This document shows, piece by piece, positions 1 to 56,275 of a DNA stretch of 64,000 bases. The first letter of the stretch is position 1. Each line of letters starts with the position of its first letter. A program made the position numbers and the translations under genes. The stretch comes from Rhynchonema sp. JSB1_4 (lineage: Eukaryota > Nematoda > Chromadorea > Monhysterida > Xyalidae): the NCBI GenBank assembly GCA_030248065.1, contig JASAMV010002058.1:1-64000 (forward strand), in the 5' to 3' direction. The notes below the pieces were generated by a model that did not search any database, was not told where the DNA came from, and saw only the letters and a program-made list of their open reading frames with translations.

Positions 1-1198
1 GCAGATAGCTGTCGAGGTAAAGCTGAAAATGAATAAAACATGCTGAACTGAGGCGCTGAAATGACAAAAGTCCAAATATTTTACTTTTGCCATTATAATG
101 TAGGTTGACCGGTTGCAGCGCTCGATTATTGCTGTTTTCTCGCATGCGACAATGCAGGATAGACAGCTGAAGAGTTGTGCAAGCTATTTCATTGCTACTG
201 ACGATGCCCTGGTGCACCGTTTGCTTGCACTATTCAAAAAATTGTGAATTGTCGCACAATGGTACAGCAGAGCCCAGCAGACATGCGATGCACCAGGGAC
301 ATCGTCGGTGCGAATAGCGAATGCACCAAATGGCTGTGTGGCACGTTCCAAACTAACAAAAAACCTGACAGCAAAACACACCCGCAAACGAGCGGCAAAC
401 TATAACTGATGATCATCTCAGCATCATGCATGATCCAATGAAAGAACATTTCGTGAAACGTATCGGTTATCTTGAAGAATCTCGCACAATCCCGTCCCGT
501 ATTGCATCCGCCCTCAGTCAACGACGTCGGTATGTGTTGTAGACAGGACATGTGCGCCATAACTGTGTCACATACACATGTGTGGTGATGTTTCAAAATT
601 AATTAACTTTGGAAATTTGACAAAAAACATTTTGACCGGTGACATACTATGTACGTGATCCGACAGATCCACACCGGTTTGATCCTGTGAATCATTGATA
701 CCGAAATAAAGCTGTTTTTGTTTTTCAAACCTAACCATCATTTCCGTCTTCACACACAAACCGATTGAACTCGTTAACAGCCAGTGCGATTTTGGTGTAT
801 TTTGATGGCAAACAACGATGCACACAGTCCTCGTACGAGTGTTGCCAGCTGCGATTGGATGGTTCGTCAATTTAGGGTGATTGACACACTTGACTGCACA
901 CACCTTAGTTGATTTTAACACCAAGTCGCGTGTGTCAACCACCACGCCCCAATGGGAATGGAGAAGCAATGTGGTTTCGACCTCTTTTCACAGACCAGCG
1001 GTGCACCATGACGCCGAAAAGCACAAGTGAATGTGAATATCTAACTGTAATCTGATAAAAGTCTTGGTGAAAACATCATGACATCTGAGGCAGCAATAGT
1101 AATGAACTTTGAAGCATCACGAACTTTGAAAACCTTATCTTGAGCTTTATGCCAAACAAAAAGAATGATAATTCTGCGATAAAAGCCGGTCGAATTAC
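1..1198. other. Intergenic, no supported gene
   Basis: I find no convincing coding exon here. Reading frames on both strands are open for 100 or so codons but show no domain or signal peptide. One minus-strand stretch near 900-960 could be an exon of the gene downstream of 1199, but nothing confirms it. The region holds one TGATGTTTCA copy at 586 and an inverted pair of the second dispersed motif at about 198-219 and 283-306. Confidence 0.5.
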
Positions 1199-2038
1199 CG
1201 AGATATACTGTAAAGTGCCAAAGTACCGTGCGTATAAAGTTGGTGATTCATTACGTTTCGTCGGCGGACGAAGTATACTCTCAACAATACCAAGTGCCTC
1301 GCTTCTGGTAACAATCTGCAATTTTTCAACCCAACCCCTCAACTCACAAGCAGTAGTGACTGTGCGTGTCTCTATTCGCACCAATGAGCACGTAAACATT
1401 GAGCGGAAAGAACTGTCTGACCGGCGCACCAACAATGACCGATTTCAGGTTCCAGCTGCGTTGCGCGTCACAATGCAGCACACACTCGCGGTGCACTCGG
1501 TTCCTGAAATGAACCCGAAGTATCAAACTTGGTGACTCGGTCCGATCCTGGTCTTGACTTTGTCCATGTGACTTCAAACGATCCAGCCCAACCGTATCTT
1601 TGCTGCCCCGGTGGAGCCAAAGGATCTGCGGCAACACCGCGACCGGGACAAGACCGGGACTCGACCAACCACCCTGTTTGATGTGACTAAAAAATTTAGC
1701 GGGTGACTGACGGGTATCAAACATATACATAGTTACAATGTCGTCAACGTGTGGAAGAAAGCGTATTGAAACATCAGCAAGCCCAATATTCAAGATTTCA
1801 CTGAAGTGACATTGAAGTAGGTAGAATGCTTTATGCACGAAACAGGAGAAAGAAAAAACTAAACGTAAGCAAGTTTAGTAAAGTTAATATGAACTCACTC
1901 TTGCACTCTGTCCATGATCGTTTCCAGGCGAGTTTTTAATGGTGGGGGCGTGTATTCAGTATTCTCGTTGTCATCATTATCATGCGCACCCGTTGTGTAG
2001 ATCAGAATGAACCACAAAGACACCAGCTGATGTTTCAT
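1199..2038 (-). CDS. Putative secreted protein, partial model
   Basis: I do not recognise the family. The model has three exons: 2038-1899, 1800-1712 and 1371-1199. The ATG at 2038 opens a short hydrophobic segment (about residues 4-18, rich in Leu, Ile, Phe and Trp) that looks like a signal peptide. An acidic Asp/Asn/Glu stretch and a Pro-rich turn follow. Phases agree across both introns (phase 2, then phase 1), with donors GTGAGT and GTCAGT. The last exon ends at a possible donor GTAATT, so more exons may follow towards position 1. The first codons, Met-Lys-His-Gln, coincide with a copy of the dispersed 10-base motif. The third exon is the weakest part. A signal-peptide predictor and RNA-seq would decide the model. 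Confidence 0.35.
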
Positions 2039-3203
2039 GATGATGATACGAGCTGATTGTCATCACGTTATGTTTTGTACAATTTAGAACGCTCTATAAA
2101 AGGTTAATAAAAGCTTTTCATGGAGAAGCTGATGCTCAATATGCCCAAGCACTTTTTTACCTTTTCAGAAAAAAAAACAAAGTTTTTCTTGATACAATAC
2201 GCTTGTGCAGCTGTGTCTCTCTGTGAGATAACGCGCGTTAATAAATGAATGCTGAAGGAAATCTGGCAACTACATGTGCCCATAAATACCTGGATGTATA
2301 GTGCACCTGAGAGCGATGTGTTATTATCATGTTATCAACGTTATGTGCTTGTTGTGTGTCCTGCAAGTTTTCCAGCGCTCACAGCAAAAACAACGTGTGC
2401 TGCTGGACACATGCTTAGACACATGTGCATCAGAGGACGATACTGTTGTGATACGGTGCACACATGTGCCTCACCTATACTGTACTTATTATAACACACT
2501 CTCCTGTGTCCCGCCCGTTGCTCATGAACTGCAATATGCTGATTGCAGTTTTACGACAGTAAAGTTCCGAAAAACATTTATGAGTAACTTTTGTGAGAAG
2601 TTTCTTTGACCGATTTTTATCATCCTAAAATCACCACACATTTTGCGCGAAAAGTTCGTGATGAGCTACGGTAACATGGAGTGGCATCCTGCCCAAACTT
2701 TACTGCCAAATAGCACTACCATCAGTGTTAGTGCGTTGTGCATGAACAGGCTTGTTACAGTACAAAGTTGTAACGAACAGGTTACGACGTAAAAAGAAGA
2801 TTATTATCTCTCGTGAGTGACGTATGTATGAAGGTAAACTACACCAACATGAGGTCGATTTCGAAGGTGGTGTGTATTAAAAACGAATAGAAAGAGAAAA
2901 TCATCATGCTCCATTTTGTATTCTTCAACGTGTCACATTTCCCAAATCTTCCCGTATGAATGTTTCACTATTCTGCCAGGTCTGAAATCGAGCTCGTGTT
3001 GGTGTAGTTTGCCTTTACGTGTTACTTTCCGAACATGCCGTGCCTTCTTTTTGTTTCAAGAGAAGAAAGTTCTGACATCACGAGCCAATTAACGTCTGCT
3101 TTCATTGCAAGCTCTTTTGGTTCAATCTTCAGCATAGCAAATTTTTGACGTGATATTGTGGGAACCAAGTGTGTAATATTGAGGCACACAGTGCCCAAAG
3201 CAA
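2039..3203. other. Intergenic, no gene seen
   Basis: This is the shared upstream flank of the putative secreted gene and the 3' flank of the GPCR. Frames at 2249-2609 (+) are short, Cys-rich and mutually overlapping, with no domain or splice logic. I see no RNA gene or element. Confidence 0.5.
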
Positions 3204-6200
3204 TCAAACGAAAACTTCGTTGCTGGTCAATGATAGCTGATCTTCGTACGTGACAACCACGTCAACCGGCATAACCACATACTCCCTTTTTGCCTTGTCT
3301 TGATTATTCGAATATGCCTTATCAATAAGGTCCGTTGTTGTGTTATTTTTCTCCAAGTCATTCGAAACGGTCGCCAGTCGCGGGCATGATCTCGACAGTT
3401 TGCGATGCAGTGGGGGCAGTAGGTCCTGGTCTGAGTCGGGCAGTGGTTGTGCCTGATTTTCAGGCTCATTCACGCTATCGTTGTGATTGCTGCTGTGATT
3501 CGACAGTGAGTTCTGACATGAACTCAGCTCCATGTCTGAGCCGTGACATCCGGTGGTGGGTTTACGACCGCGTCGTCTCCTGATGGTGGGACGTTGGAGG
3601 GCAATAACTGGCACGGAGGGTCCATGTCCGATGATGGGGGGCACAGCACCGATGAAGGTCGATGTTTGGTTGATACCATTGGTTGCGAGCTGTTGCTGGA
3701 ATGAGAAACGTTGAATATCATTTCTGACGTTATTGGGAACGCACTTTTCCTAGAATGTCGCGCTCATGTCAACTTCTATACATTGACTCTCAAGGTTCAA
3801 AGCACCAGACATACTGTATATGTAGGTATGAGTCACCTGATTTCTGCCAGCCTGGTTTCTGAAGAATTTTAGAAATCCAAAGTCTGCAACGTCGTTATGT
3901 TTGGATTCCAAAGATAACGACGTTGCAGACTTTGGATTTCTAACGCTGCTGACAACCTGTTCGTGACGGCTGGCGAAGACTGGCCAAATTCAATTCGTAG
4001 AGCGTTTGTCTCGCAACCGGTTTCCAGGAGAAAGAGGGCGATTGAAGTACCCTCAGACATCTACACACATACATATATGTACGTACCTACCATGCTCACC
4101 CGCTTTATATGATTTTCTTGCAAGAAAATCTCAAAACAATGATAAGCTTTTTTGTGTCCAAGCAACCTGACTGGCTTTCTCTCCCTTCATTCGTCCCCAA
4201 ATGCGTCGCATGCCCCGTTTGACCAGCGGCCATTGGAAATACGAATAGATCCAGGGTGAGACGAAACTGTTGAGATTGCCAAGCAGCATCAGATGGGTGG
4301 CCAGGGATGGGGCTGCAGGCGGAAAGGCTTGGGCGGAATTTGGAATGTTTGACACAAACTCGGTTGTTGGTCCGGTCTTGTTGGTCACGTGACTTTGGAT
4401 TACGTATGGCTATTTCGATTTCAGGGCAGGAACAATTTCGACCAGCAGAAAAGTTTGACTGCCTGTCATCAACTTTCGCGCTGGACGAAATTTGTGCCAC
4501 TTCACTATTATAAAAAAACTTGCAGTCACGTGACCAAGGCAAAACCGAACCCAGGAATAGATCGCCAAAATATGATACAGACCGCATTTGTGTTCGGTAC
4601 AAACGGCAATGCGATTAATTGTGGCAACTCACAATAAGTAAAAGGAATAACGAAGACTCACAAATGAGATTCGGCGCAAGCACTTGGACCAAGTTGACGC
4701 CACAGAAGGGTGCCCAAAGCACGAAATATGAACAGACGATGCACGAGGTCAGTTTGATGGTGTCGAGCTTCTGGAAAAAAGTCAGGTTGAATTTGAAATC
4801 AAATGTAAAAAAGCTAAGAAGCAACGCAAAACAATTAATGAGGGAGTTTCGCACAAACACCCCAAACCTGTTTGTCCAACTGCCGAATCTGTTCCCGGCA
4901 CGCGTCACTGAGTCGTTGTCGCTGCGTCGGTCTGCCGGCCAGAAATTCCAGCCCGATGCGTTCCGCTGATGCTTTGCGCACTTCTGCAAAGTTGTGGGTT
5001 TGACACGGAATCAATTAATAAGTTGAATCGGTTTATGCTGAGAACGCTATAGCAAGATTTTTGAGCACCAAATGAGAGTCGCCCCGATATACGGCACCTT
5101 GATAAAATATGGCCTTCTTGAGTCCGTTGAGTTGTTTCCACACAACCTTGCACACGTTCAAGTATAGACACGCGGATGAAGTTGTCGGAATCAGCCACAC
5201 AGCCACCACGAAAAGTATGACATTCACAATTTGGAACTGTTGTGTAATGTGGATTGGTTGACAGGGCGAACGGGCCAGCAAAGTTTGGTGGTTGTTGAAC
5301 GTTAACGTGTGATTGGTTGCTGCTGTTGATGTTTCATTATGATTATGTCTGGCGGGTACCAATCCGTAAGCGTATAAATTGGGGGTTGGCATCACAGCTG
5401 CGGCCAGCCATGATGCTCCCGCTAGCATTTTGGCCCGATACAGTCTCCCAGCCACCAGATTGCGAAGTGGGTGGCAAATTGCCTGAAAATACGCGTCACG
5501 TTACTAGTGTTAACTGACCACTACAAAGAGGATCGTAATGTGGTGTTTGTAGAACGCAAGAATAACAGCAGGAACGCAACCAATACAAGTAAACAACTTT
5601 TACCGCCCGTCCACTGAACAAGTCTAAAAAATCACGAAATAATCTGACAAGGAGGCCGCCAACGAGCCCCATTACTCACATTGCAGCACATCAAGCCCGT
5701 TTTTTTGAAAATTCTAGCAACTCAATGTAAAGGCCTAACTATACTTCGTTCTCTCAGAGAACAAAGAACAAATTCTCGCGCGCTGATTGGCTGTTGAACA
5801 TACGTGGACCAATCAGTGCGCGAGAATTTGTTCTTTGTTCTCTGAGAGAACGAAGTGTAGTTAGGCCTTAAAGGTGCTGGTCAACAACCCATCGACTTCG
5901 TTTAATCTTGGGGGCAGTGCACCTGAACAAAGGTGGAATATCGTGTTACTCGACCCTGACTTGGGGAGTCGATTGGTTGCTTCCTGATGTTTCACGGCCG
6001 GGTTGAAGTTTGCCCCTCAGTGAAAAAATGCAAAAATTATGCCGGGTTTCCGTGGAAAGGACAATTCGCTGCAACGTTTAATAATTTCAGAATATCAAGC
6101 ACCAACGTTTGTTTCATCAGTATGATATAAAGCTTTGCAGGAAACAGCTTGTATCCTGAAGGAGAAGTCATTTAGTTCCAAAAACCTGGTGTTTTTTGGT

Positions 6201-7328
6201 CACCGTTTTCTTCGCCGATAATTTTAAGCATCTGCGATTGACCAGCAAATGTGTTGATCGGACACAAAAATCCTCTAATTACTGTGTACATAACCTGTGC
6301 TTTTGAGTTCTTTGCACCAAATACAGCTAACGCAATAATTCGGACAACATGCGCAAGTCGGTCATTATGGGCGTGCGCGACCCCAAAAAAGACAAAACAT
6401 TTTTGAGTGCTCGAATCTGCACGTTGTTTTTGAGCGCGCGCGCTCATAATGACCGACTTGCGCATGTTGTCCGAATTATAGTATTAGCTATTGGTGCAGA
6501 GAACTCAAAAGCACAGGTTATGTACACAGTAATTAAAGGATTTTTTTGTCCGATCAACACATTTGCTGGTCAATCGCAGATGCTTAAAATTATCGGCGAA
6601 GAAAACGGTGATCAAAAAACACCAGGTTTTTGGAACTAAATAACTTCTCCTTCAGGATACAAGCTGTTTCCTGCAAAGCTGTATATCATACTGATGAAAC
6701 AAACGTTGGTGCTTGATATTCTGAAATTCTAAAACGTCGCCGTGAATTGTGCTTTCCACGGGAAGCCGGCATAACTTTTGCATTTTTTCACTGAGGGGCA
6801 AACTTCAACCTGGCCGTGAAACATCAGGAAGCAACGAATCGACTCTCCAAGTCAGAGTCGAGTAACACGATATCCCACCTTTCTTAATGTGCACTGCCCC
6901 CAAGATTAAGCGAGGTCGATGGGTTGTTGACCAGCAGCTTTATAAATAAGCAAAAATAAGCAAAAAATGTATACACTAGCTTCGACTTTGGCATTACTCA
7001 CCATATAGCGATCAATCGAAATCGACACGAGCAAGAACGGACTGGCGAACATGGGCACGAGTCTCACATAGCCAAACAGCCTGCAAATCGTATCGTCGCC
7101 GAAAAAATCGGGCGCCATCAGAAACTGCGCCATCGTCGGCAGAATGGTGACCAGCGCGAATAGGATATCCGAAATGCACATGTTCAAAATCAACAATTGA
7201 ACCGAACCTAGCGATTTGTTTTTGTTCACCGTTCGAATACCGAACACGATGACGAGCACCAGGAATATGTTTGACATCAACACCAGCGTCACTATTATGC
7301 CCAGGAAAACAGTGACTCGGACAAGCAT
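3204..7328 (-). CDS. Class A peptide-type G protein-coupled receptor
   Basis: This is a seven-helix receptor in six exons: 7328-7002, 5482-5098, 4983-4868, 4770-4633, about 4358-4167, and 3695-3204. Exon 1 carries TM1-TM3 and ends in Asp-Arg-Tyr-Met. Exon 2 resumes with Ala-Ile-Cys-His-Pro-Leu, which restores the classic DRY...P-L second intracellular loop, then TM4, an Asn-rich second extracellular loop and TM5. Exons 3-4 give a long basic third intracellular loop and TM6 (Trp-Ala-Pro-Phe-Cys). Exon 5 gives TM7 with Leu-Asn-Ser-Phe-Val-Ser-Pro-Trp-Ile-Tyr. That Leu-Asn-Ser...Pro-Trp-Ile-Tyr pattern is typical of the vasopressin/oxytocin, GnRH/AKH and CCAP receptors, so I infer a neuropeptide receptor of that superfamily. 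Exon 6 is a polar 163-residue tail. The 5' side of exon 5 has a weak acceptor and is uncertain. A good acceptor about 30 bases before the ATG suggests a 5' leader exon or trans-splice site. Because TM1 begins almost at the start codon, N-terminal exons may be missing. Confidence 0.85.
3869..3943. repeat. Perfect 30-bp inverted repeat, 15-base loop
   Basis: The arms 3869-3898 and 3914-3943 are perfect reverse complements around a 15-base loop that is itself nearly palindromic. It lies in the last intron of the GPCR (4166-3696), so it would be transcribed with that pre-mRNA and could fold into a precursor-like hairpin. No TIR or target duplication was found. It could be a tiny palindromic element or a small-RNA hairpin. 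Confidence 0.85.
5730..5869. repeat. 140-bp hairpin MITE-like element
   Basis: About 60-bp arms starting AAGGCCTAACTA are reverse complements, with a few mismatches, around a short centre near 5795. The left end follows TA. The right end is where the larger foldback element (5871-6940) was inserted. It lies in intron 1 of the GPCR. No coding capacity. Confidence 0.85.
5871..6940. mobile_element. Foldback (palindromic) element, copy 1
   Basis: This is a 1.07-kb near-palindrome with ends AAGGTGCTGGTCAACAAC and its complement, flanked by TA on both sides. The two ~0.5-kb arms read through the same ~57-residue frame on opposite strands, which is a by-product of the symmetry and not two genes. 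I see no transposase. A second copy lies at 33000-34073. TA fits a Tc1/mariner-type target. The related TTAA signature fits copy 2 exactly and copy 1 with one mismatch, so a piggyBac-type target is the alternative. It sits in intron 1 of the GPCR, exactly at the edge of another hairpin element. Confidence 0.9.
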
Positions 7329-10300: not shown

Positions 10301-11469
10301 GGCAGTCTTTTTTGTCCAACTTTTCCGTAAATAAGGCCACTCTCATCTTAAAAAGAAGAAAATAAACGTGTGCGCTGGGCACACACACACCTTTGTTGAC
10401 GTTGGTGAGGTACAATCTGCATGGTAGCGCGCCTTGCAGTTGTCCTTTTTTCACAGCAGACCTGCTCTCGTGGTCACGACCAAAGTTTGATGAAAAGGAA
10501 ATTTTTTTCGTGTCGCGTCTCGTCTCGTTCTCAGGTTCTCTGCAAGCAGTTATAGGGTAACGAAACAGCGTCTTTCAGCAGCTAACGAAAACTAGAGAAA
10601 AAGAGATCACTGTGAACTTTTTTGACATGGCCTGATGTTTCATTCATGTCTACAGCACAAGACACAAGTACAGGATTGCAATTATCGAGTGTGTTTTGTG
10701 TGAAACATCAAAATGCATATTCTTGCGATGGTCTAAGAAACTGGACCCGGCACAGTGTACTTTTTAGCCACGCTGTATTTCAGTATTCCAACGACACATT
10801 TGCTGCGCATGACATCGTTTCAATGTGACGAGAAACTATCACGGTTCTGGTGAATCTTCAAATATTCCCGGGAGGCTTTCACGCAAAGGTGCATTGCGAA
10901 TAAGATGCTACAGGCATGCTATATACATACTTTGGCATTTATCTGCTCCGAATGTAGCGCACAAGACGACATTATTTATGTGATTCGCACAAGTGTATGG
11001 CATACGGGTACTATGTTCGCGACCATGCCGCCCGCGTCCCGAACATTCATGCTTTGTGTTAATATGTTCTTAACTTTGTTGACACGTGTGCAAAATTGAA
11101 CCCCATGTCAGAAGTTCCGATAAAAGTTCCAAGCAGCAGTTGAGCTTTGGGGTGAGGGCATTAGCTGCCTTCCAATGTTTCAAATGAAAACAACAAATCC
11201 GCATTGCAGTCTCAGTTTCAGCGTTTCGCATTGGGATGGCAGCTGCTTCTCTGGCACTGCGTTGTTTTTGGCTTTAAAGTTCGTTTGGGTTGAAATGACA
11301 ACACGGGTGGGCAACCGATGTGTAAAAAGAAGCTGTAAGCAGCTGCAAGTGCAGGGACAAAGCAACACGTGGCCGCCGACATCATTTGTATATCGACATT
11401 TTGTAAACACCGCTTTAAACGGTATGAGTGAACTCCACCAAACCTAAACTCCATAAAAGAATAGCAAAA
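7329..11469. other. Long intergenic region
   Basis: Apart from the palindrome at 7965-8190 I find no gene. Frames such as 9198-9698 (+) lack domains and splice logic. Two TGATGTTTCA copies face each other at 10633 and 10701, and a second-motif fragment lies near 8827. A short inverted repeat (about 13 bp) lies at 8864/8950. Confidence 0.5.
7965..8190. repeat. Palindromic element, ~225 bp
   Basis: The ends GGGTGATATTTTCGAAACGG (left) and its imperfect complement (right) begin two ~100-bp arms rich in repeated TTTACACCG/AAAGGTCGG blocks. It lies upstream of the GPCR. No protein. The target duplication is ambiguous (possibly AAA). Confidence 0.75.
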
Positions 11470-14396: not shown

Positions 14397-14425
14397 TGTC
14401 TGGAAATGTGAATACTGAGCAATGC

Positions 14426-14827
14426 AGGGTGTCTCAAAAATACCGTTCTACTCGTAACCTCTCGGGTCATAACTAACGTTACAGATGCTGTACTTTATTG
14501 ATTTATAGGGCTATCAAAGCCGAAGGCGACTCTGAGTATATTAGATGCACACAACATATCCGGGAACTGGTTGCCTGATGTTTCAAGGTCGCTTGCGCTT
14601 TCTAATGCTTGGTTGCATCCTTTTCCCAACATGTCAATCAAATGAGCAATGAACAAACAACATGCAAATGGCTTTGAAACATCAGGCAACCCTGCTTGTT
14701 TTACGCCTCCAACACGCGTAGAATCGCTGTCTGATTTGACTGCATCATAAATGAATACAAGCCAGCTTTTATAACACTAGGTGTGAGCTGGAACACAACG
14801 AGTAGGACGGTATTTTTGAGACACCCT
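14426..14827. mobile_element. TIR element with CAGGGTGTCTC-type ends
   Basis: About 30-bp terminal inverted repeats starting AGGGTGTCTCAAAAATACCG bound ~400 bp with no transposase. The end sequence resembles mariner-type termini. The target duplication is unclear. Inside lies a second, smaller hairpin at 14571-14695 whose arms are copies of the GCCTGATGTTTCA motif. It sits just upstream of the zinc-finger gene. Confidence 0.75.
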
Positions 14828-16471: not shown

Positions 16472-17671
16472 ATGGCGGCATCAAGTGGAACACTTACCGT
16501 GATTTATCCGCAAATCAACGAACCATTTCGATACGCTTGCGGTTTCGAGTCAAATCTGCAAGCGACGTCAGACTGTCCTCTGCCAGGATTAGTGTCCGAA
16601 TCCATTGGCCTAATCCTCAGACTGGCCAACATTTCCTTTGAGCTTCGTGATTACCGCAATCGCAGCATGCCTGATGCTGATTGGTTCATTAATTCTCAAC
16701 AACCAAACGTCATGGTCATGTGGGCCGATACATTCGGTGAGCCAGGACTGTATTATGAAACATCGCCAGCTTTGACCTACCCCATAAATGGATGGGAGAA
16801 CGTCAACTACGTGTTGGGAACGAACAGTGCACCGCATGATCTGAAATATCAGGCCGTTTCCTTTCTGATGGTGTTTGGCCATTGGGTCTGGCTCGCAGCT
16901 ATTGTTGCATTGATTGTGCTGAAAACCTTGTCAAGTATTATGGCGACACGTTTCGGGCAACGAAACTGCACTCAACCGTTTATTGTAATCGTGTTGGGAT
17001 TTTTCGTTTTGTTTATCACAGGACTGTATCGATCCGGACTGCTCTCCAAGATCATTCTGGCAAAGAAGACCTATCAGTTCGAGAATTTCAATGAATTGCT
17101 TCATCTGTTGAAGAACAAAAAAGTACAACTGCTGTTAGCGGACCCGTTATTTCGCAGTGTGCTGGAGTCGTCAAACGATAAAAGCGTGGTCAGTCTGAGG
17201 CAGACCTTCATTAACAATCCCCCCGTGGTCGTCGACAATTTTGACTACGACGTCCATCGTGACCAAATTGTGCGGGGCGAGGCGGTGATGTTGATGTACA
17301 AGGTCACGGCGGCCAAACTGACCAGCAAATGGTGTGGTGTGAGGGCGCTGTCGTTTCCCAACGCCTGGGCGGGCAGTGCCAAGACATTCACTGTGAGTCG
17401 GAATGTCCCAGGGGAGCTCCTAGCGAAACTGAATCACGCAATTGTTCAATCGCAAGGTTTGACCAGACGAATTAGCGCAAAATATATGCGTTTTCTGAAA
17501 CATCAGAAGCGGAGTTGTCCGAATGATATCGCAATTCGGATGAGGGATACGTCACTTCGAGTCGAACATGTATTCGGTATGTTTGTATGTTTGCTGGCAG
17601 GACTGTGTGCTTCATTGATTACATTTTTCACGGAACTTGTTTGTAAGCGGAATCGATTAACGCGAAAGTGA
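16472..17671 (+). CDS. Ionotropic-receptor-like protein, copy 1
   Basis: This is a 399-residue intronless frame with ATG in a CACACC context. It follows the bilobed ligand-binding layout of ionotropic glutamate receptors: S1 (residues 8-130, with Asn-Glu-Pro-Phe-Arg-Tyr-Ala-Cys-Gly near the start), a helix at about 131-152, a second helix at about 169-190 ending Leu-Tyr-Arg-Ser-Gly-Leu-Leu-Ser-Lys-Ile in the position of the SYTANL motif, S2 (about 200-365) and a last helix (about 370-392). The amino-terminal domain is absent, as in insect IRs and some nematode paralogues. Only about 17 residues separate the first two helices, too few for the usual pore loop. No signal peptide is visible, so a 5' exon may be missing. 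It is roughly half identical to the next gene. Role inferred: chemosensory or co-receptor membrane protein, possibly non-conducting. Confidence 0.8.
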   Translation: MAASSGTLTVIYPQINEPFRYACGFESNLQATSDCPLPGLVSESIGLILRLANISFELRDYRNRSMPDADWFINSQQPNVMVMWADTFGEPGLYYETSPALTYPINGWENVNYVLGTNSAPHDLKYQAVSFLMVFGHWVWLAAIVALIVLKTLSSIMATRFGQRNCTQPFIVIVLGFFVLFITGLYRSGLLSKIILAKKTYQFENFNELLHLLKNKKVQLLLADPLFRSVLESSNDKSVVSLRQTFINNPPVVVDNFDYDVHRDQIVRGEAVMLMYKVTAAKLTSKWCGVRALSFPNAWAGSAKTFTVSRNVPGELLAKLNHAIVQSQGLTRRISAKYMRFLKHQKRSCPNDIAIRMRDTSLRVEHVFGMFVCLLAGLCASLITFFTELVCKRNRLTRK

Positions 17672-18258: not shown

Positions 18259-19524
18259 ATGACATTTTGCTGTTTTGAGTTCGTTTGCGCCAAGACAATG
18301 TTGTCTAACGAAATATTCACTGTTATCTACCCACCTGTCAATGAGCCGTTTCGGTATGCGTGTGGTTTTGAGTCAAACCTTCGAGTGACCTCGCAATGTC
18401 CGATGCCTGGCATCGTGCCAGAAAGCGTCGCGTTGATTCTCAAACTCGCTAACATCAGTTTCGAGCTGCGCGATTACCGAAAACGCCGGACAGCGGATGC
18501 TGATTGGTTCATCAACACGCAACAACCCAACACATTGACGTTGTTCAGTGAGGCTGTCGGTGACCCAACCTTGTACGACAATGCACCTGCTCTCACCTAC
18601 CCCGTGAGCGGATGGGAACAGACATATTACATCGTCGGTACGAGCACTGCGAAACACGACCTCAAACACCAAGCCATATCCTTCTTAACTGTTTTTGGCA
18701 ATTGGGTCTGGGTTGCTGCAGTGCTGACCTTCTGTGCCTTGAAGGTGTTCTTGCGACTCATGGGAACTGCTATTGGTCGAAAGACATTCACACAAGCATT
18801 TGTTGTCGTTATGGCCGGCTTCTTCACTCTGTTGTTGAGCGGACTCTACAGATCGGGTCTGCTGTCGAAGATCATTCTCGCCAAGCCGGAATATCAATTT
18901 GAGAATATTGGCCAACTGGTCAAACTACTGGCACGAAGCGAACTACAACTGATCGTGAAACATCAGTCAGATATTGAGTCGTTCGAGAATTCCACCGCGC
19001 CAGATATTGTAGCGTTGCGAGAGACGTTTCATAAAAATCCACCGCTGCTCGCCCCCGACTTTGATTACGACGTTCATCGCGAAACAATTGTGAGTGGTCA
19101 AGCAGCCATACTGCTATCGTTGACAGAAGCCAATGTTTTGGTCCGCAAATGGTGCAACACGGTTAGATTGGTCCGTTTCACCGGTGTGCCGGACGAAATA
19201 TCGAGCTTTGGCATGAGCGCCAACGTGTCCCGTGAAGTTTTGTCAAGGATCAACTCGGCTATCATTCATTCCGAGTCAGTTACATACAAAATTAACAAAA
19301 AGTATGAGACTGCTATGGACTACGGGCATCGACCTTGTTCAAACGATCCAATCACCAGCGAAATTACCGACATCTCATTGAAAGTTGAAAGCATTTTTGG
19401 CATAATGCTGTGCTTTGTAGCTGGATTAGCATTGGCATTGTTTGTCTTACTAGCTGAACTGGTGAGCACTTGTATGTTTAGTGACAAGAATGCTATCGTG
19501 AAAATTTTGCAGTTGAAGTCATAA
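18259..19524 (+). CDS. Ionotropic-receptor-like protein, copy 2
   Basis: This is a tandem paralogue of the preceding gene, in the same orientation and also intronless. The first ATG at 18259 adds a Cys/Phe-rich N-terminus that could serve as a weak signal peptide; a second ATG lies at 18298. S1, helix, short hydrophilic link, helix with Leu-Tyr-Arg-Ser-Gly-Leu-Leu-Ser-Lys-Ile, S2 and final helix all align with copy 1. It too lacks space for a pore loop. Highly conserved blocks are the Asn-Glu-Pro-Phe-Arg-Tyr start, Asp-Ala-Asp-Trp-Phe-Ile-Asn, and Asp-Tyr-Asp-Val-His-Arg in S2. The shared Asp-Tyr-Asp-Val-His-Arg is a family feature rather than a known ligand motif. Two copies of TGATGTTTCA (reverse) fall inside the two genes at non-homologous codons. 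Confidence 0.8.
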   Translation: MTFCCFEFVCAKTMLSNEIFTVIYPPVNEPFRYACGFESNLRVTSQCPMPGIVPESVALILKLANISFELRDYRKRRTADADWFINTQQPNTLTLFSEAVGDPTLYDNAPALTYPVSGWEQTYYIVGTSTAKHDLKHQAISFLTVFGNWVWVAAVLTFCALKVFLRLMGTAIGRKTFTQAFVVVMAGFFTLLLSGLYRSGLLSKIILAKPEYQFENIGQLVKLLARSELQLIVKHQSDIESFENSTAPDIVALRETFHKNPPLLAPDFDYDVHRETIVSGQAAILLSLTEANVLVRKWCNTVRLVRFTGVPDEISSFGMSANVSREVLSRINSAIIHSESVTYKINKKYETAMDYGHRPCSNDPITSEITDISLKVESIFGIMLCFVAGLALALFVLLAELVSTCMFSDKNAIVKILQLKS

Positions 19525-20601: not shown

Positions 20602-26245
<5,644 letters not shown>

Positions 26246-29842: not shown

Positions 29843-32350
29843 TGTGTCGCTTGCGGCTGATGAAATTCTATCGTGCTTTTCAAATGTTATGAATTATTGG
29901 AATATTCGTTCGCTGTTGGCTGAAAACTTATCTTGTCGACTGTTTTGATTAAACTGGCAGTGCTCCACAGAACAAAAAGTGTGAATACTGCGGTTTTCAG
30001 CAAACGACACGTCATGAAAGTGACGGTCCATATTTAGTTGCGCAATCCACAATGAACCACATCGCTGTGCCTGCCTCAGATAGTACATATGTATATAACA
30101 CGAAGCACTCGAAAACGTTTCCACAACAAAACCAACAATAAAAACTTCAGATGACTGACCTCTCGACCTCTGAATTGAATTTACAAAATGCGAACAATGC
30201 AACTTTGTTCGTGTGAAGGAAAACAAAAGCTGAACTGGCAATCGTTTGTGTTTGTCAAGAATTCGGGTCACCCATGAACTTTCTGCGTTTATGGTGCAGC
30301 GGAGAAAACACCATCTATGTATACGTAATTTTACCGAAAATCAGACTTTCGCAATTGAAAGCCACTTTTGTCAAAACACGATAAGTGCATCGAAAGCTGC
30401 GCCTACGCATTATTCCTTCCTTATCACATGTTGGCGACAAAGCAAGAAACATGAACAAAAATCACGACCTCAACTATGTAACTGCACTTCAATAACAACA
30501 ACAATGACAACAGCGAGATAAAAAAAGTACAGGACAAATAAAAAAATCAGGATTTCGATTTCAAAATTGTGGCCAAACAACAAACACAGCGAAGCGAGCG
30601 GTTATAATTGATCCAGTGCACGAGTGAGTTAAAATGTTGTTAAACACAACCAAGTTCAAAGTACGTAAAATATGAGGACCCAGGGACAGGGCCGGTACTG
30701 GCTTGTGCAAGCAGTTGATGATGAGTACCCACAATGTACACTTCCGCGATGCGGGGGCTTGTGAACTGGCGGACAACCTGTTACCTACATCCAGCGAGGG
30801 TTTGAGTTTGTTTGGTTGGTTGGATACTGGCAATGTGTATTTATGATGATGATATTAATAAAAATGTAAACATTTCGGTCCGCACGCGCCTGCCCGCTAA
30901 TCTGGGTGCACGTCTGTTTTTTATTTTATATTTTACGACGAGGTTTTGGGATTTGGTGTCCGGGAGGAGGACACTTTATTTTGTGTGCGGGATTTATATG
31001 AAATTTGCAGCATAACGGAAGGGTGTTTGCGAGAGTAAAAAAAAACTGAGAGCTCAGCACCTGAGCGGTTATATGTTGCTGACAGTAAATTTCAGTGCAG
31101 TGAAACTGAAATCCACGAATGCCCACGTGCGTTATCTGCATTTTCGAAAATCATGGAAAAGTTCTGGAACTGGTTGGTCCAGTAGAACTGCATTTCATCA
31201 GCACGCAATATAGTGGTGGTGTATGGTATAGTGCACACACTAACGGACCAATGGCAACATACTGTGTATATTCAGGAGGATAACTGATCAGGAGGAGCAA
31301 CTCGATTCCACACCAGTCTGGGTCGGTCATATCAAAACCCGGTTCGGACTTGACTCCACAAGTCCCATAAGAAATGTTACGTGAAATGATGTCTATGTGA
31401 AACATCAGTCAGCCTACCACTAATGCGGTGAGGTGCCTGATGTTCCAAAGGATAACTCAAGCTCGAGTAAAGGGATCTTTGAGTACTGCAGAACCAACAC
31501 GATCACCAAATTTGATCACCAAAGCAACAAACTGACTAAAATCAAACACACAACGCTTGCCATTGGTAAGTGAACACCCGCATGGACATTTTCCGACAAA
31601 TATATTTATCTACCTGCACAGATCATTCTACCTGCATGTATACATATAGCCCAAACCTGGTGCAAATTCAACTGAACACTGCTGAGTGGTGATGATTCGG
31701 TCAAACCCGAAAATTCTAAAATCGTTCGCCCGTGGAGGTGCGCGCGGTTTTGTTGACGAGTGTTATGTAGTTGGACAGATTTTGTCACCACACCACAAAT
31801 CAGCCATAAAAACGAGTTCAAGTGGGATTAGCACAGCAGCAGTCATGCCTCACAGCGATTACCTGACGCCACTTATATTCTGAGGCTGTTTTGGGCTGAG
31901 GTTGTTTGTGCGCGCATTTATTTGGGAATGATTTCAAGGACAGAACGGATTTCCTTGCGCGAAACATACATATGCGTGTAGATATACAAACAGCAATCGG
32001 AACAAGAATCAGGAAGGAAACTGCTCGCAGCGAATTTGGGATGTTACACGTTACTCGCACACGCACACACCAGAAAGGATGCGAGGTTATTATTTGAACT
32101 GTGACGCAGGCAGGTCCTTGGCCTTCATTTGTGGCGCAACAAACGTGTAGGAATGATGTTATTTTATGATTGTAAATTATTGTTGTTTTTTTTATATCGT
32201 GCCATGCTACTTATATTGGATCAGGGTCACGGCACGCGAGCGGTTTTGTTTGTTAATTTAGATTGCGGAAGAAGCTGCGGACAAATAGCAAAATGAGTAT
32301 GATCATGTTGGAACGGCGAATACCTGCATTTGTGTGCATAGACGCATTTA
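29843..32350. other. Intergenic, no gene seen
   Basis: No supported exon or RNA gene. One TGATGTTTCA copy at 31398 faces a one-mismatch copy at about 31437, about 40 bases apart. Confidence 0.5.
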
Positions 32351-32999: not shown

Positions 33000-34073
33000 A
33001 AGGTGCTGGTCAACAACCCATCGACTTCGTTTAATCTTGGGGGCAGTGCCCCTGAACAAAGGTGGAATATCGTGTTACTCGAAACTGACTTGGGGAGTCG
33101 ATTGGTTGCTTCCTGGTGTTTCACGGCCGGGTTGAAGTTTGCCCCTCAGTGAAAAAAATGCAAAAATTATGCCGGGTTTCCGTGGAAAGGACAATTCGCG
33201 GCAACGTTTAATAATTTCAGAATATCAAGCACCAACGTTTGTTTCATCAGTATGATATACAGCTTTGCAGGAAACAGCTTGTATCCTGAAGGAGAAGTCA
33301 TTTAGTTCCAAAAACCTGGTGTTTTTTGGTCACCGTTTTCTTCGCCGATAATTTTAAGCATCTGCGATTGACCAGCAAATGTGTTGATCGGACACAAAAA
33401 TCCTCTAATTACTGTGTACATAACCTGTGCTTTTGAGTTCTTTGCACCAAATACAGCTAACGCAATAATTCGGACAACATGCGCAAGTCGGTCATTATGG
33501 GCATGCGCGACCCCAAAAAAGACAAAACATTTTTGAGTGCTCGAATCTGCACGTTGTTTTTGAGCGCGCGCGCTGATAATGACCGACTTGCAAATGTTGT
33601 CCGAATTATTGTATTAGCTGTGTTGGGTGCAGAGAACTCTAAAGCACAGGATATGTGGACAGTAACTAGAGGATTTTTGTGTCCCATCAACATATTTGCT
33701 GGTTAATCACAGATGCTTAAAATTATCGACGAAGAAAACGGTGACCAAAAAACACCAGGTTTTTGGAACTAAATGTTTTCTCATTTAGGATGCAAGCTGT
33801 TTCCTGCAAAGCCGTATATCATACCGATGAAATAAATGTTTGTGCTTGATATTCTGAAATTCTTAAACGTCGCCGTAAATTGTGCTTTCCACGGGAAGCC
33901 GGCATAACTTTTGCATTTATTCAATGAGGGGCAAACTTCAACCTGGCCGTGAAACATCAGGAAGCAACGAATCGACTCTCCAAGTCAAAGTCGAGTAACA
34001 CGATGTCCTACCTTTCTTAATGTGCACTGCCCCCAAGATTAAGCGAGGTCGATGGGTTGTTGACCAGCAGCTT
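33000..34073. mobile_element. Foldback (palindromic) element, copy 2
   Basis: This has the same ends, length (1.07 kb) and organisation as the element at 5871-6940, and its left arm is nearly identical to it in sequence. It is flanked by TA on both sides, and by TTAA on both sides if one base of each end is counted as target. No transposase. Confidence 0.9.
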
Positions 34074-34749
34074 TAATGCAAGTCACGATTGCAGGCAAAA
34101 TTGTCACCCTGCAAAATCATGATGCCCGTGTGATGTTTCAAAAATGCATTGCTGCTTTGTTGGACTAAATACGTATTCCCTCCCCACATTACGATACAGC
34201 CTACCCATCATAGTGAATTGATCCGGGACACACCATTTTGTTCGCAACGTTGAATATGAGCCACATGGAATTCCCCTTTATGGTCCATCACCAGATGTTT
34301 AGCATGAAGTAGCGATTGTATTAAACGTCAATGAACCGATTTCAGAACTCCTATGTATACATGTGAATACCACGATTTTGCTTCCACTGACTTGTGCCAT
34401 GCTCATCTCATTCACCTTGGCTATCTGGCTCATTTCGGAACCTAAATTTCTGGTCCCTCAAATTTTGTTCACTTTCGAAAGCGGCGTTTCAGCCCTAAGT
34501 CACTATACAGAATAGAGAAATATTCAGAATATAAGGAATCCATCCAAATTCTCACTGAGCTCAAAAAAATTAACCACCGTACATACTCCTTGGCAAAAAA
34601 TCTTTTGTAAAAAATATGAATGGACACTGCGGTGAATTGCAGCGAGAGGGTCTTCACCATTCAAGGAATAAAGTAGATGAATTCTGACGTATTATACATA
34701 ATGATTGCTGCCCGTTCTACAGATCGTAGATATGGATAGAATAACTCAA

Positions 34750-35045: not shown

Positions 35046-36433
35046 GGAATTCACAAAACAAAGTCAAGGTCGGACTTGAGGGCAGCCGTCGACCTGGCAC
35101 ACTCTGATCATCCGGTAAACTGAAACATCAATTTTACAAGTTGTCGGTATTGGAGCAATAGCAAGCACTCACGTGGCCAAAAACAGCGTGGCACTATTCT
35201 GAAACGTTAGGTTGGGGAGGGGCAAGCAACACATGTCAGCGTGCGTGGCATAATTTACCGGCATTTTCCACGTGGAGCCCCTTTTCGAATAGAGCCCTCC
35301 GATGGGGCGCTATTTGGGGCAAATTTTTTTTGGAAATCGATTGAAAACAAAGATTTCACCACGGGGTGCAAGCGCGTCACTCGCACATATTTTTCAACAG
35401 AAGCCGTTGTTTGATTGAATCACATTACCTCCAATTGCACTCAAAGCGACTCTGATAACCTTAGAGTTCAACAAATGCTAAAAAAACCTTACCACAGACT
35501 TCTTTTCAAATGTAGGCATGCCCTGGGATTTATTTGGATAAAATGATTGAAACAAAACTGTCGATTTTTTCGTTCTTTTCCGAAAAGAACCCGGGTCATT
35601 ATGTGAAAAGCTCCGGATGTATATATTTTATGTATGTTTACCGTGGTTCCACGTTGCATAGATTTTGGGGGAAACGTTTCACGCATAAAACGTTTTTCGT
35701 TTCGTATTTTTCTTGTTTGATCTCAGTCAGTTTTGAAAAGAACGATTTCATTATTGCTGTTTTGACAGGGCAACTCTGATGCAACTGTCTTTCAGATGAA
35801 AACTCAAATTGCAAATCGAGTGCAAAACTTCAGAGTGCAAATTGATTGGAGAATAAAATTACTTCATCGTGTTGGGCGATCCGCGACCGCCATGGGAAGA
35901 CAGAGGGGAAGGTTGTCCGGGAGCGCAAGAAAAAAAGAAGAAATTGATGAAATTATCACAGGTGAAGGTGAGCAAGGTCAAAGTTGGATGTCACATGACA
36001 ATATAGTACATGTGCCGAGTCGCATCAAATTTGAAGCCACAGGGGCTTTATTCGGAAAAAGTTTGTGGGTAGGTTTATGACAATTCTGGAAATTGCCAGC
36101 GTTATTGGGTGTTATTACAAACGCTCAGTGGTTCGCACATGCTTTCGAGATAGCATTGGAACTTTCGGAAAAATCAATTTTTGTCCAGTGGTTGTATGTT
36201 TCTTGAAAAGTCATTTTTATCCAGGGCGTGTTCAGAGTTTGACGATTAAATCAAATATTCTACCACACGCACACAAAATACCATGCGTGTAAAATTTTGA
36301 CACTGTTTGCTTGCACGCGCGATGGTTAAACTTTACTTAAAAAGGGGTTTCAAAATGGCAAAGTGAGCCTTTGTGAGCGAGTTACAAAATTGCGCACTTG
36401 CCGCATCCTATACCCTTGTAGCGACACAGTGAC
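35046..36433. other. Intergenic, no supported gene
   Basis: Short frames at 35534-36292 (+) show no domain or splice logic. The 5' end of the following basic-protein gene probably lies near the right edge. Confidence 0.45.
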
Positions 36434-37629: not shown

Positions 37630-41122
<3,493 letters not shown>

Positions 41123-49419: not shown

Positions 49420-49606
49420 TACAAGGGGGCTCCAGTGTAGTTCATGGGGGGAGGGGGAACTTCGCAATTATGATGCTTAAAAGCTGTATTCCGTTGTATA
49501 CGCAAGCTTAAACAACGTTTGACGACACAACAACACAACACAACCCTAATGCCACCAACCGGTTGGCAGTGCTGTGGCTACTTTGGCGGGGCGGGTAGGG
49601 TACATA

Positions 49607-50670: not shown

Positions 50671-50791
50671 TCTTCTCAGTCACTGAGTTGCTGCTTTCAG
50701 GTAATCGTTGGTTTTTGTTGTCGCCTGTTTTCATTTCGTGTGCGCCATTGATCACTGATTTTCGCCTGTCGTTGCTGTTTTTGGTTGGTTT

Positions 50792-51250: not shown

Positions 51251-51934
51251 GTTGGTTTAAAATTTCTCTGGTACGTTTTGTCGTTTGTTCATTCATGATT
51301 ATCATTGTGTTACGTACACTCGTTTATTTTTCAGGTGTTTTCCGGATCTCGTTGTAGGTCTTTGCGTGAGCTTGCAAATAAAATTTGAATTTGAAAATCT
51401 CCCCTCCCGTTGAAGTTGAAAAAGGCCAAAATAAATCTCTTTCAATTCATTTTAGTTCCTATTCCGCAACCAGCATGGTACCGGAACCTGGGGCCCAAAA
51501 CATGACCACTACAAAATAGTGGTCGAAGAACACGTTGGCAAAATGTCTGAAAATGACCAAAGTTCAGCACTTTATTGTGTTTCTCACCATCCCCACAAAA
51601 TTGACGTGGGCCAAGCTAATGTTTGAGATGCACACTTGTCAATACATTGCGTGGTTTGTTTGCGTCCATCAATCACACTGCGGAAAAATACATGTTGCCG
51701 GTTTACAGTAAGACTCTGACACAACCATTTCATGACAAAAGTTGTCAGTGTAAAGTTGTTCACTGCAAAACCTGCGTTGCAAGATAGTGCAATAACGCGG
51801 TAAACAAACTTCTGCGTCACATATACAAAGTAATTTTAGTATTTCGACTTAGTTTCGAATTAGTTTGGTTTCAAAACTTTATAGCTTTGAAAAATCTAAT
51901 CCGGATATTGTTAACCAAACCCACAAACAAATAA

Positions 51935-53374
51935 ATGTCTGATCGCGATGTGAAGTTATCCAAAACTCTGTCATGGGTTTTGCGACACGGTGCCACACAG
52001 GTCGGGCTCCAACTCGACCCAGGAGGGTTCCTTCCTGTTGATGAAGTTCTCCGTTTGCCACAGCTGGAAGGTCTGCGCTGACTTTTGGCATTTTTTAATG
52101 ACCAGATTGACATAAACTTTGTGATGTTTGCAGGATTCACCCAACTGGATGTTGAGCGCGTGACGCAAACGAACAGAAAAGGTCGATTTGCGATCGAGAC
52201 CAGCCCGATAGACGGTCGACTCAGGATCCGAGCCAATCAGGGACATTCGCTGCAAGTGGAGAATCTGGGTGCGCTTTTCGCATTCTGTTGTAAAAGCTTA
52301 CAATATGTGTGTAAACTGCATGAACCTGATCCTCCTCACATGATTTTGAAATATCAGTCGGTTTTGTCGCATATTGAATATCTAACACATTCTGAGGTTG
52401 TGTATCATTAGGGTCCAGCGCTCACTTGGGTCCACTTTTTCGCTGGGCCTAGGCGTAGGCTTAGACTTTCACTTCGGGTTAGGCTTGGGCTTAGGCCTAC
52501 ACTGCGTATTTTAATGGGCAGTTTGCAGCCTAAGCCTAAGCCTAAGCTTGAAACAAAGCTAATGAGCGCTGGACCCTAGTGAGCACTGGACCCTAATGAT
52601 ACACAACCACATTCTGACTACTGTTGTTTTGATGCGACGTGCTGATGTTATACAAATGTTTCTCATTGCAGACCTGACCCCGATCACCAGCGTACAAGAA
52701 TGTCCGATAGCAATCCACGGTACTCAATCCCAACTTTGGTCAAAAATTCGCGCTCGGGGCCTAAACCGAATGACGCGACAACATATTCACATGGCCAGCG
52801 GACGACCGAATTCGAATGGTTGGTTTGAACATCAGTGAAACATCAGGTCGTGTTTCTGGATCCTGTGTTGGACGGTAGTATTGATAGCAAAGTGATTATG
52901 GTGAACATGTGTTGTGTGCAACTAGAAACTGAAAATTGAAACATCAGCTCGTTGGAGGTCACATCTCGGCTAATGCGGCGCCGGTGCACCTGCACCACTC
53001 GTTGTGGAAACAAGTATTAGTGCACTGGAGATACTGACAGCGATCGAGTTAAACCTCACTTGAGCTTGACCGATTGATCTGACTCACAGAACCAACTAGA
53101 TCAATCCGATCAGCGTTTGGAAAGTGCGACTCCAGATTTCTGAATAATCTCAACAGCGACATAACTTCCAGGTGTCATATCGGGAATGCGCACAAACTGC
53201 GACCTGCTGATCTACATCGATGTGCGAAAAGTTCTAGAATTCGGGCTGAAGCTCTTCCGATCGGCCAATGGCGTCATACTTTGTCCTGGCGATCGGGATG
53301 GCTTTCTGAGTGTGGAGTTTTTTGAACGAGTGGTTAGAATTGAGAACGGGGCTGATACTGAAGTTAGCATTTGA
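51935..53374 (+). CDS. TRPT1: tRNA 2'-phosphotransferase (Tpt1/KptA)
   Basis: This is a complete 206-residue enzyme in four exons (51935-52070, 52134-52268, 52672-52818, 53172-53374), all introns in phase 1. It removes the 2'-phosphate left at tRNA splice junctions, transferring it to NAD. Conserved blocks are visible in order: Leu-Ser-Lys-Thr-Leu-Ser-Trp-Val-Leu-Arg-His-Gly, Thr-Asn-Arg-Lys-Gly-Arg-Phe, Ile-Arg-Ala-Asn-Gln-Gly-His-Ser, His-Gly-Thr with a downstream Gly-Leu-Asn-Arg-Met, His-Ile-His-Met-Ala, and Phe-Arg-Ser-Ala-Asn-Gly-Val-Ile-Leu. These supply the RNA-binding and NAD-binding Arg/His residues of the family. Length is in the normal range. Intron 2 holds a palindromic element carrying telomere-like hexamers. 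Confidence 0.97.
52396..52608. repeat. Palindromic element with TTAGGC repeats
   Basis: About 30-bp inverted ends (GGTTGTGTATCATTAGGGTC and complement) enclose an exact short GCCTAA array at 52529-52548 and several degenerate copies. TTAGGC is the nematode telomere hexamer. It lies in TRPT1 intron 2. Confidence 0.85.
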
Positions 53375-54590
53375 AAATTTCTCACGGTTTTTTGTTTCTT
53401 GTTATTGTTGTTTCCTTGTTTTTTCGATATCTCTGCTTTAAAGTTTGATTCCATGAGCGGCTGTGACACCATATTTTTGCTCATATAACGATGAGATAAA
53501 TCCTGTAACTGCTCATGCATTCCATTGCAAGGCTCGCAGTTTTATGGAAATGGTTTTGTGTGATTTCAATAAGGCAAGGACAAGGTACGGTTCAAAAGGC
53601 AGTATACACAATGTGATATTCGAAATTTTGAAAACTCAAAAGTTAAAGCAGGTTGAATGATATGCTAATGCACGCAGAAGCAACGAATGCTAAAAACAAA
53701 ATAGAATGAAAGACTCGGCGGTAGTGATAACGGCCTAATAAGAAAAGTTCATTACCACAGTATCAATATCATTTTGATCGCAAAGCATAAAATCATCAGC
53801 CAAAAACGAAAAAAATCATGAACTTGTGTGAATTTTCTATTCACTCGGGCTGTTTCATTTGTTGCTGTCAAAGCTGTTGAATCCAGTTGAACCTGAAACA
53901 AGGGGAAAAGTCCGTTTTCGAATTTCCAGTGAACGTGAAAAAGTTCTAATCTTTTCGCCAACCGAAATTTTTTCAGAAAAAAATCAAAAGTTACCAATTC
54001 CGGAATCCTGGCTTTTCCACCGGTGCATGTGCGTTCGTGCGGCCATTAGCTCATTGACGTTGTGTCGGCCGGTCACTGGAAGGTTTTTTTCTTCCAAAAA
54101 AGTTTTATGTTTTCAAAAAAAAATGATTATTTTTTGCAAAAAGGGTGTGAATCAACCTTGTTGCTGCTGTTGCATTTCCTGCTGTTGTTGTTGTTCGTAA
54201 TATCGCTGATGACCAAGGCCACCACGACTCGTGCGCAGCGGATTCGATCGATCAAAATACGGCGGCGACATATACCTGCGCGTGAAACATCATCCAGAGC
54301 TCAATCATTATGCAGTGGCTGGTGTGGCTCAACGCCCTTGCTGTCCACTATTGCGAACGACCTTTGTGAGCGCATAACCAGCTCGTGTTTGTTTTTGGGA
54401 TCACTTTGCCATCTGGTGCATTCGCACTGACGATGACCTGGTGCACCGCCCGTCTGCAAGAGCAGGTCGAAACGGGCAACCAAAAAAAATATATGCTGCA
54501 TAACTGGAACATGGAAGGTTATTTAGAGCTGTAAAATTATTCAGAGTGCCCATAATCATTTGTATTTGAGCATCCATGGCTGGTGGGGCA
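53375..54590. other. Intergenic, no supported gene
   Basis: Open frames at 53859-54430 (+) have no domain and end in poly-Cys low complexity (a CTG-rich stretch near 54160). One TGATGTTTCA copy lies at 54283 and a second-motif copy at 54426. Confidence 0.45.
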
Positions 54591-56042
54591 TACTCTCCGG
54601 GAAATTTTGGCCGAATTTTACCGAATTCGGTAAAAATTTTACAGATTCTCGTTAAAATTTTGAGCACATAAACTGTCTGTAAAATTTACAGACTGTCTGT
54701 AAAATATTACGTGTGTTGCATAGTAGCTGCCGTTTTACAGAATGTTGGTAAATTTACAGACAGTTGGTAAAAGTGGGACTTTACAGACTTTATCGGTGAT
54801 TTCATTTCCACTGCAACAGGCTGCTTTTGTCATTAATATCACTTGTTACTTGCGCACGATGACAGCATACATAAGTACATACTGTAAATACCTATCAAAA
54901 CACGCATATGGTTGAGAACAATCTAAATGGGAGCTAAAACGTACCAGAAGGTGTGTTACGAACCCATGCGTAAAACAACGCAAACACAGCAAAATATTGA
55001 TACATAAAACTGTTGCGGTATTAAGAGACAAGTACAGGTACATATATAACTTTTGAAATGACTGCACAATTAAGCTCGTGCGCCTTCCAATAGTGGTGGT
55101 TTAGGCTTGGAACTAGACATGGGTAGGTAAAGTAAGCCTTCTAAGCCGAGTCTAAACCACAATAGGAGGCGAGCTATAATGGTGAGGCACTAGTTTTGGA
55201 GTATATCTCGCCTGCAATAAATTGCGGTAATCAGTTGCGTTTGGTGTTTTGACGGTTTTGATTATTGACACCGACGTGATGATGCTCATCAGCCTTTCTG
55301 ATCAGCCGATCCTGTTGGCGACAAAACGAACCGAGTTCAGTTGCAATCGAATTGATTAGTCCGATCCTGTAATATTGAGATTTACGAGCATTCTCAAACG
55401 ATAGTAATAATAGTGAATATAATTTTGTTGAAATAAAGAAGTTTATTTCAAAAATTCGCCCAAAATTCGCCCACTTTTCTGTGCCTAAACACGGTCCTAT
55501 GCCTAAGCACAGGCATAGGCTTAGGCTTTATTTTTCAAGGTGGGAGGAGCTTGGGTGGATTTTTGGGCGAATTAATCACACGTAAATCAACACAAAAAAG
55601 GTTTCAAATTCCGCACAAAGCACGAAGATCAATGTCCAGTCCCTGTTCCATAAATTTACCTGCTATATTGTTTTGTTCGAGTTCTCATACTGATCTTGTG
55701 TCAATTTGTGGACCAGGCGCGATGAATCTTGCGAAATTTGACAAACATTGCGCATCGGAATGCTTAGAGTTCACAGTTTTAGCAGCTGCTGAATAAAGAC
55801 GCACAGTTTGTTAAAACAAAGCAGGGATAAGTCAGAACACAACGCTATCAATAAGTAAGGAACACTTTCACATGAAACATTTCTGATTCCCGCGCTTTCA
55901 CTCATTTTTACAGACAGTTTGTAACGTTTACAAAGTGTCTGTAATTTTTACATATAATCTGTAAAAATTACAGATAGTCAGCTTTTTCATTTTTTACCGA
56001 CACACTCGGTAAAATTATTTTACAGACTCTTCCCGGAGAGTA
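54591..56042. mobile_element. 1.45-kb TIR element with subterminal repeats
   Basis: The ends TACTCTCCGGGAA and complement are followed on both sides by clusters of TTTACAGAC/GTCTGTAAA repeats (54640-54800 and 55905-56030), a common arrangement for transposase-binding subterminal repeats. The interior has a small hairpin at 55080-55170, TTAGGC-like hexamers near 55510, and no transposase. No target duplication is visible. Confidence 0.8.
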
Positions 56043-56275
56043 CGAGGGCGTGTAACTGTAGTGATCTTTGAATTGAATAGCAATTAATTGAACCCAAGCG
56101 TGCACAACGGTTTTGCAGTGAGTTGTGCTGCATTCGCGATTGCTGCCAAACAACGTTCCGTAAAATTGTTCAGCGAAACAGCTGTCACGAAATCGCTGAT
56201 GTTTCACCAACTAATCAGCGCCCCTCCCGCACTCCAGCGATCAGCACAAACAAACAACCAACTTGTTGATTTGTC

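Follow-up and report, generated by a model that had tools for sequence, protein, structure and literature searches.

Copies of a ten-letter word in the window

The window analysed here is the whole of a 64,000-nucleotide stretch of DNA from the nematode Rhynchonema sp. JSB1_4, part of contig C1235 (JASAMV010002058.1) in an assembly of 203,913,205 bases and 5,747 contigs, and the element in question is a ten-letter word, TGATGTTTCA, that recurs along it. The original prediction, made from the letters of the window, had listed 23 exact copies with several one-mismatch versions and had judged them far too many for chance. That observation was right, and understated. Each of the 23 positions holds the exact word (9 on the + strand, 14 on the - strand), a further 20 copies differ from it by one base, and together they make 43 copies within one mismatch, whereas 100 shuffles averaged 10.67 and never exceeded 18. 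An Rfam scan of the window at gathering scores gave no matches.

Three of the exact copies, at 5985..5994 (+), 6817..6826 (-) and 33950..33959 (-), lie in a foldback element and, as had been noted earlier, have flanks in common. Several stand in or beside open frames: the copy at 14576..14585 (+) adjoins C2H2 zinc-finger frames, that at 1767..1776 (-) falls within a 176-residue frame (an uncertain gene), and those at 38180..38189 and 38459..38468 (both -) fall within a single 153-residue + strand frame (also an uncertain gene). Copies on the + strand were also found at 586..595, 2028..2037, 5327..5336, 10633..10642, 34131..34140 and 56197..56206, the last in the form GC-TGATGTTTCA-C, and on the - strand at 10701..10710, 14675..14684, 31398..31407, 35121..35130, 52836..52845, 52937..52946 and 54283..54292.

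The remaining three copies are inside genes. That at 23120..23129 (+) occupies the sense strand of an HSP70 intron, approximately 42 bases 5′ of the inferred start of the next exon; the preceding exon ends ...RIINEP and the following one begins TAAAIAYGL. The copies at 17496..17505 and 18956..18965 (both -) lie antisense within open frames that belong to a pair of adjacent receptor-like paralogues, where they read LKHQ and VKHQ, respectively. The two frames share 193 of 398 aligned residues, and only the first matches a Pfam family, Lig_chan, below the cut-off of that family. At both exonic copies the other paralogue aligns across the motif without a gap, which fits gain or loss of the motif through substitution; the divergence of the paralogues is too great to tell gain from loss. 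The insertion of a tiny element was rejected on the strength of these alignments. Elsewhere in the genome, C7:1-10000 holds four copies close together in a gene that is EGF-like by eye (L027), one of which, lying between two EGF-like units, apparently gives DVS in frame.

Some stretches are poor in the motif. Window positions 44001-52000 and C18:8001-12000 are rich in repeats and in C or G runs of seven or more, with 25 such runs in window 48001-52000 and 24 in C18:8001-12000, and contain no exact copies. C17:16001-36000, which falls in a 46-kb gap between copies (5295 to 51397), contains very long open frames, the longest of 824 residues, together with some repeats, and may hold transposons.

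Abundance and sharpness of the word across the genome

Over the 203.9 Mb of the assembly there are 37,556 exact copies, one per 5.4 kb, with the strands used equally (18,829 + and 18,727 -). The reversed string occurs 345 times (172 and 173), so that the exact word is in approximately 109-fold excess. Allowing up to one mismatch gives 92,371 copies against 15,893 for the reversed control; the 30 one-mismatch words together thus account for 54,815, and the exact word is approximately 20 times commoner than the average one of them. In 329 kb of the genome, 69 exact copies were counted where a second-order Markov model predicts 2.3. A count near the Markov expectation, the first outcome named in the original prediction as speaking against it, is therefore not what is seen, and chance was rejected by the shuffles, the genome-wide count of the reversed word and the Markov expectation alike.

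Near misses in the same 329 kb are skewed toward transitions (43 against 15.2 expected) more than toward transversions (50 against 35.4), as point mutation into or out of the motif would leave them. The commonest are TGATGTTGCA (12 against 1.5 expected), which may be a repeat, and TAATGTTTCA (10 against 1.4).

Flanks, repeats and spacing of the copies

Copies with similar flanks were removed before flanking positions were counted, leaving 85 of 101 rows in a first set, not selected by flanks, and 144 of 162 in a larger one, which takes in most of 60 copies selected for the form GCTGATGTTTCAC. The removed rows were mostly one place fetched twice, the 162 rows representing 147 distinct 40-base contexts. 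The 85 distinct copies are conserved outside the core at T(-8), G(-6), C(-5), T(-4), G(-2), C(-1) and C(+10); the larger set adds C(-9), A(+11) and a weak excess of T at +18 and +19, for a rough extended form CTGGCTRGC-TGATGTTTCA-CA. The 13-mer GCTGATGTTTCAC occurs 4,090 times in the genome, its reverse 6 times. An extended consensus had been proposed, and an extension does exist, but its letters are better given as G(-2) C(-1) before the core and C(+10) after it.

Beyond approximately 8 bases to the left of the core and 1 to the right, the flanks of the 85 copies show no clear conservation and look like background. Self-repeats in 261 kb of sampled DNA hold 5 of 52 copies where 11.0 were expected (p = 0.04). 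The idea that the copies are remnants of one longer repeat was rejected because their flanks are unrelated and because they are under-represented in self-repeats; the proposal of a tiny mobile motif likewise found no support, given these flanks and the lack of an insertion at the motif in either paralogue comparison. A short mobile element or a single longer repeat family accordingly seems very improbable as the source of the word, even though a single foldback element accounts for three of the 23 copies in the window and a few elsewhere are in duplicated DNA (e.g., on C3 and C9).

Spacing was measured over 102 adjacent intervals, drawn from the first 100 listed places (contigs C2-C24) together with the window, which is denser than average; some of the pairs lie within duplicated DNA. 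Twenty of the intervals are shorter than 500 bp, against 9.0 expected for a uniform spread at genome density, and six are shorter than 120 bp, against 2.2 expected. Three of these six are in the window and two are arms of one apparent inverted duplication on C3. Close neighbours thus look over-represented, but their orientations are mixed with none preferred, and the opposed-pair architecture suggested for the window was rejected on this ground.

Match to the promoters of small nuclear RNA genes

Genes for small nuclear RNAs (snRNAs) were located by family matches, with 9 for U2, 8 for U5, 9 for U6, 10 for U1 and 3 for U4. The promoters compared were those of U2 (8 of the 9 matches above the cut-off, 7 with a readable 5′ end), of U5, and of two of the nine U6 matches. 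Each RNA was taken to start at its conserved 5′ word; for U5 this is one base further in than the beginning of the family match. Within 120 bases upstream, the sequence that best fits the profile built from the dispersed copies lies at -46 to -48 in 8 of 8 U5 and 7 of 7 readable U2 promoters, so that all 15 carry the site at a constant distance from the RNA start. Both U6 genes that were read carry GCGC-TGATGCTACA at 56 bases upstream of the model start, with a TATA-like stretch after it. In this genome the proximal sequence element (PSE) of snRNA genes takes forms such as GCTGATGTTACAC in U5 and GCTGATGTGACAG or TTATGTTTCAC in U2, all like the dispersed word. Examples in context are GGCAGC-TGATGTTACA-C and TTGGC-TTATGTTTCA-C from U5, and GGCTGGC-TGATGTGACA-G and TTATGTTTCA-C from U2; a single gene of each family, L038 for U5 and L034 for U2, carries ATGTTTCAC itself.

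The U2 genes form two classes with different promoters, one on C2142, C4125, C492, C1444 and C1555 and the other on C5394. The PSE of one class is GATGTGACAG (GACGTGACAG in L029), and that of the other is ATGTTTCAC (L034) or ATGTTTTAC (L035).

When near-identical promoters were left out, 11 remained for a summed test (3 of 7 U2, 7 of 8 U5 and 1 of 2 U6). Together they score 154.4 bits, against a maximum of 51.9 across 2,000 column-permuted profiles, 38.1 for the reversed profile, 19.3 for the opposite strand and at most 70.9 for random stretches of the window (500 draws). The resemblance is to the core: typical U5 promoters have a second, downstream block, GATAGACTACCC, and the dispersed copies, counted in their TTTCA form (the GTTTC version), show no conservation at those offsets and no sign of the block.

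The dispersed word therefore appears to be the PSE core of this genome, the site of SNAPc, and the sequence evidence makes it probable that the dispersed copies are SNAPc binding sites. The original prediction had spoken of a genome-wide binding site, and here it gains support from the close match to the PSE core, the fixed place of the site in U2 and U5 promoters and the related site before U6. It had also looked to a zinc-finger protein as the reader of the motif; none is needed, because SNAPc is a known factor for this kind of site.

Machinery of the genome

Exons of SNAPC3, a subunit of SNAPc, are present (best E 1.3e-14), as are 54 Piwi-domain stretches. Of 20 that were translated, about half are AGO-type by eye and some are unclear, while both stretches from C1663 look PIWI-type. 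Aligned to Drosophila Piwi, one of the latter, the exon L140, scores 59.4 bits, compared with 24.1 for human AGO2, and L132, a typical AGO exon of the genome, shows the opposite preference; L140 best matches Piwi proteins and represents a PIWI-clade Argonaute, as expected of a genome with Ruby-type piRNA promoters. C3368 and C4595 have the same match pattern as C1663 and, on that pattern, are apparently two further copies or alleles.

Four tandem units of TTAGGC, the nematode telomere repeat, occur 698 times when overlapping matches are counted, and the reverse does not occur at all, which fits an origin in Nematoda. Such arrays are interior to many contigs (e.g., C568:77388-86096), where they frequently come in pairs of blocks separated by 30 bases, as though belonging to a dispersed repeat. 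No match to the SL1 RNA family (RF00198) was found in the genome, with the positive control likewise unmatched.

Comparison with nematode piRNA promoters

In C. elegans, type I genes for PIWI-interacting RNAs (piRNAs) are autonomous units with an 8-nt core approximately 35-42 nt upstream of the 21U-RNA (PMC3597512), and the motif is bound by the USTC complex with SNPC-4 (PMC6317315). The last eight letters of TGATGTTTCA are ATGTTTCA, a sequence that the oogenic 21UR-2502 has as its core motif and that is one base off the CTGTTTCA of the C. elegans Ruby motif (PMC3597512). A Ruby-type 8-nt core, [C/A]TGTTTCA with its GTTTC, is thus present here as ATGTTTCA, and the two systems are also alike in that the motif recurs many thousands of times and the genome encodes PIWI and SNAPC3. 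They differ in that the present copies are dispersed over the genome, have a longer, PSE-like 5′ part, and show no detectable downstream YRNT or fixed T.

Outside Caenorhabditis, the piRNA and snRNA motifs of Plectus are described as highly similar, the ancestral nematode SNAPc site as having had GTTTC, and piRNA loci as dispersed in some species (Beltran et al., PMC6436959). Compared by description rather than base by base, the piRNA motif of Plectus sambesii and P. murrayi resembles the word studied here in being PSE-like and in containing GTTTC. The scale is different, with 3,082 sites obtained by motif scan in P. murrayi (PMC6436959) as opposed to 37,556 exact cores here.

Downstream of the copies, the spacer has an AT fraction of 0.575 at offsets 18-25 and is then near background. 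No start signal at a fixed distance was found downstream among the 144 distinct copies.

Weighing the explanations

The reading we favour is that the dispersed copies, as SNAPc sites, serve as piRNA minigene promoters of the Ruby type. SNAPc, possibly accompanied by piRNA co-factors like C. elegans USTC, would bind the copies and recruit RNA polymerase II; the polymerase would make short capped transcripts from approximately 45-50 bases downstream, and a PIWI protein would load these as piRNAs, as at C. elegans Ruby motifs and the PSE-like piRNA motifs of Plectus. We infer the binding from sequence, and this part is strong; transcription and PIWI loading, the piRNA part, come by analogy. The reading as a whole we put at even chances. 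Put most simply, the worm would have a dispersed, PSE-driven set of piRNA promoters in unique, partly genic DNA.

Several results pull the other way. Were most copies 21U-RNA loci, the 21U start signal YRNT would be expected at the right distance in nearly all of them. A YRNT whose T falls 45-52 positions from where the core begins is found in 70 of 144 distinct copies, compared with 63-77 of 144 in other downstream windows, and we estimate that at most about a sixth of the copies could carry an obligate YRNT; nor is there a clear GC or pausing-like signature downstream of the 85 distinct copies. Two exonic copies in the window and the apparent one in the EGF-like frame are odd for promoters. 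The match to any single snRNA promoter is modest (0.010 to 0.086 after allowing for some 110 positions), so that the strength of the snRNA match lies in its fixed position and in the summed score, and the profile behind that score takes in most of the 60 copies selected for GCTGATGTTTCAC, which sharpens its flanks. Moreover, snRNA genes within a family are related, and the independent units are therefore the families and the visibly different promoter classes rather than 15 events. The missing YRNT means either that no such start rule applies in this worm, or that selection acts on binding alone, or that the word has spread by drive; for this reason the piRNA reading is set no higher than even, and the copies are not filed as proven Ruby motifs.

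Selection on binding alone would make the copies SNAPc sites with a non-promoter role, such as chromatin organisation, insulation, chromosome pairing or action as decoys, kept for the binding itself. Chromosome pairing and insulation were the analogy drawn in the original prediction, and nothing in the results singles them out. The PSE identity of the copies, the equal use of strands, the copies in exons and an intron and the lack of a downstream start-site signal all agree with such a role, yet none is mentioned in the portions of the literature consulted, a PIWI gene is present, and close pairs have no preferred orientation; we regard a non-promoter role as unlikely. Spread by drive, in which the word would be over-transmitted (for instance by biased gene conversion at bound sites) and need no function at each site, is more doubtful still. 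Bacterial DNA uptake words accumulate in a comparable manner, and drive would account for the sharp cliff between the exact word and its one-mismatch neighbours, for near misses of the kind that decay or gain by point mutation gives, and for a word tolerated in exons without indels, but alone it does not explain the match to the snRNA PSE. That same element at a fixed place in snRNA promoters, its in-frame reading in exons, its graded flanks and the excess of transition-type near misses also make an assembly or adaptor artefact, in favour of which nothing was found, scarcely credible. Taking binding and drive together, it is possible, though less likely than not, that an snRNA-promoter word has been multiplied to approximately one exact copy in every 5.4 kb and has stayed sharp, even within exons, for SNAPc binding or by drive and not for piRNA starts.

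Implications

That a dispersed motif derived from the SNAPc site has a role in nematode piRNA biogenesis is already known. Relative to the literature examined, what is new is the scale, the sharpness of the word, its presence in exons and the missing start signal; a literature search found the word in this sense in no paper. If the copies are not piRNA promoters, then an animal genome has become populated throughout with a core transcription site, and if this came about for binding itself or by drive, the word would be a eukaryotic counterpart of bacterial uptake words. If they are piRNA promoters, as the reading we favour would have it, this worm would possess a dispersed, PSE-driven system whose candidate sites outnumber the 25,883 piRNAs given for C. 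briggsae (PMC9683057), and it would offer a direct test of the proposed co-option of nematode piRNA promoters from snRNA promoters.

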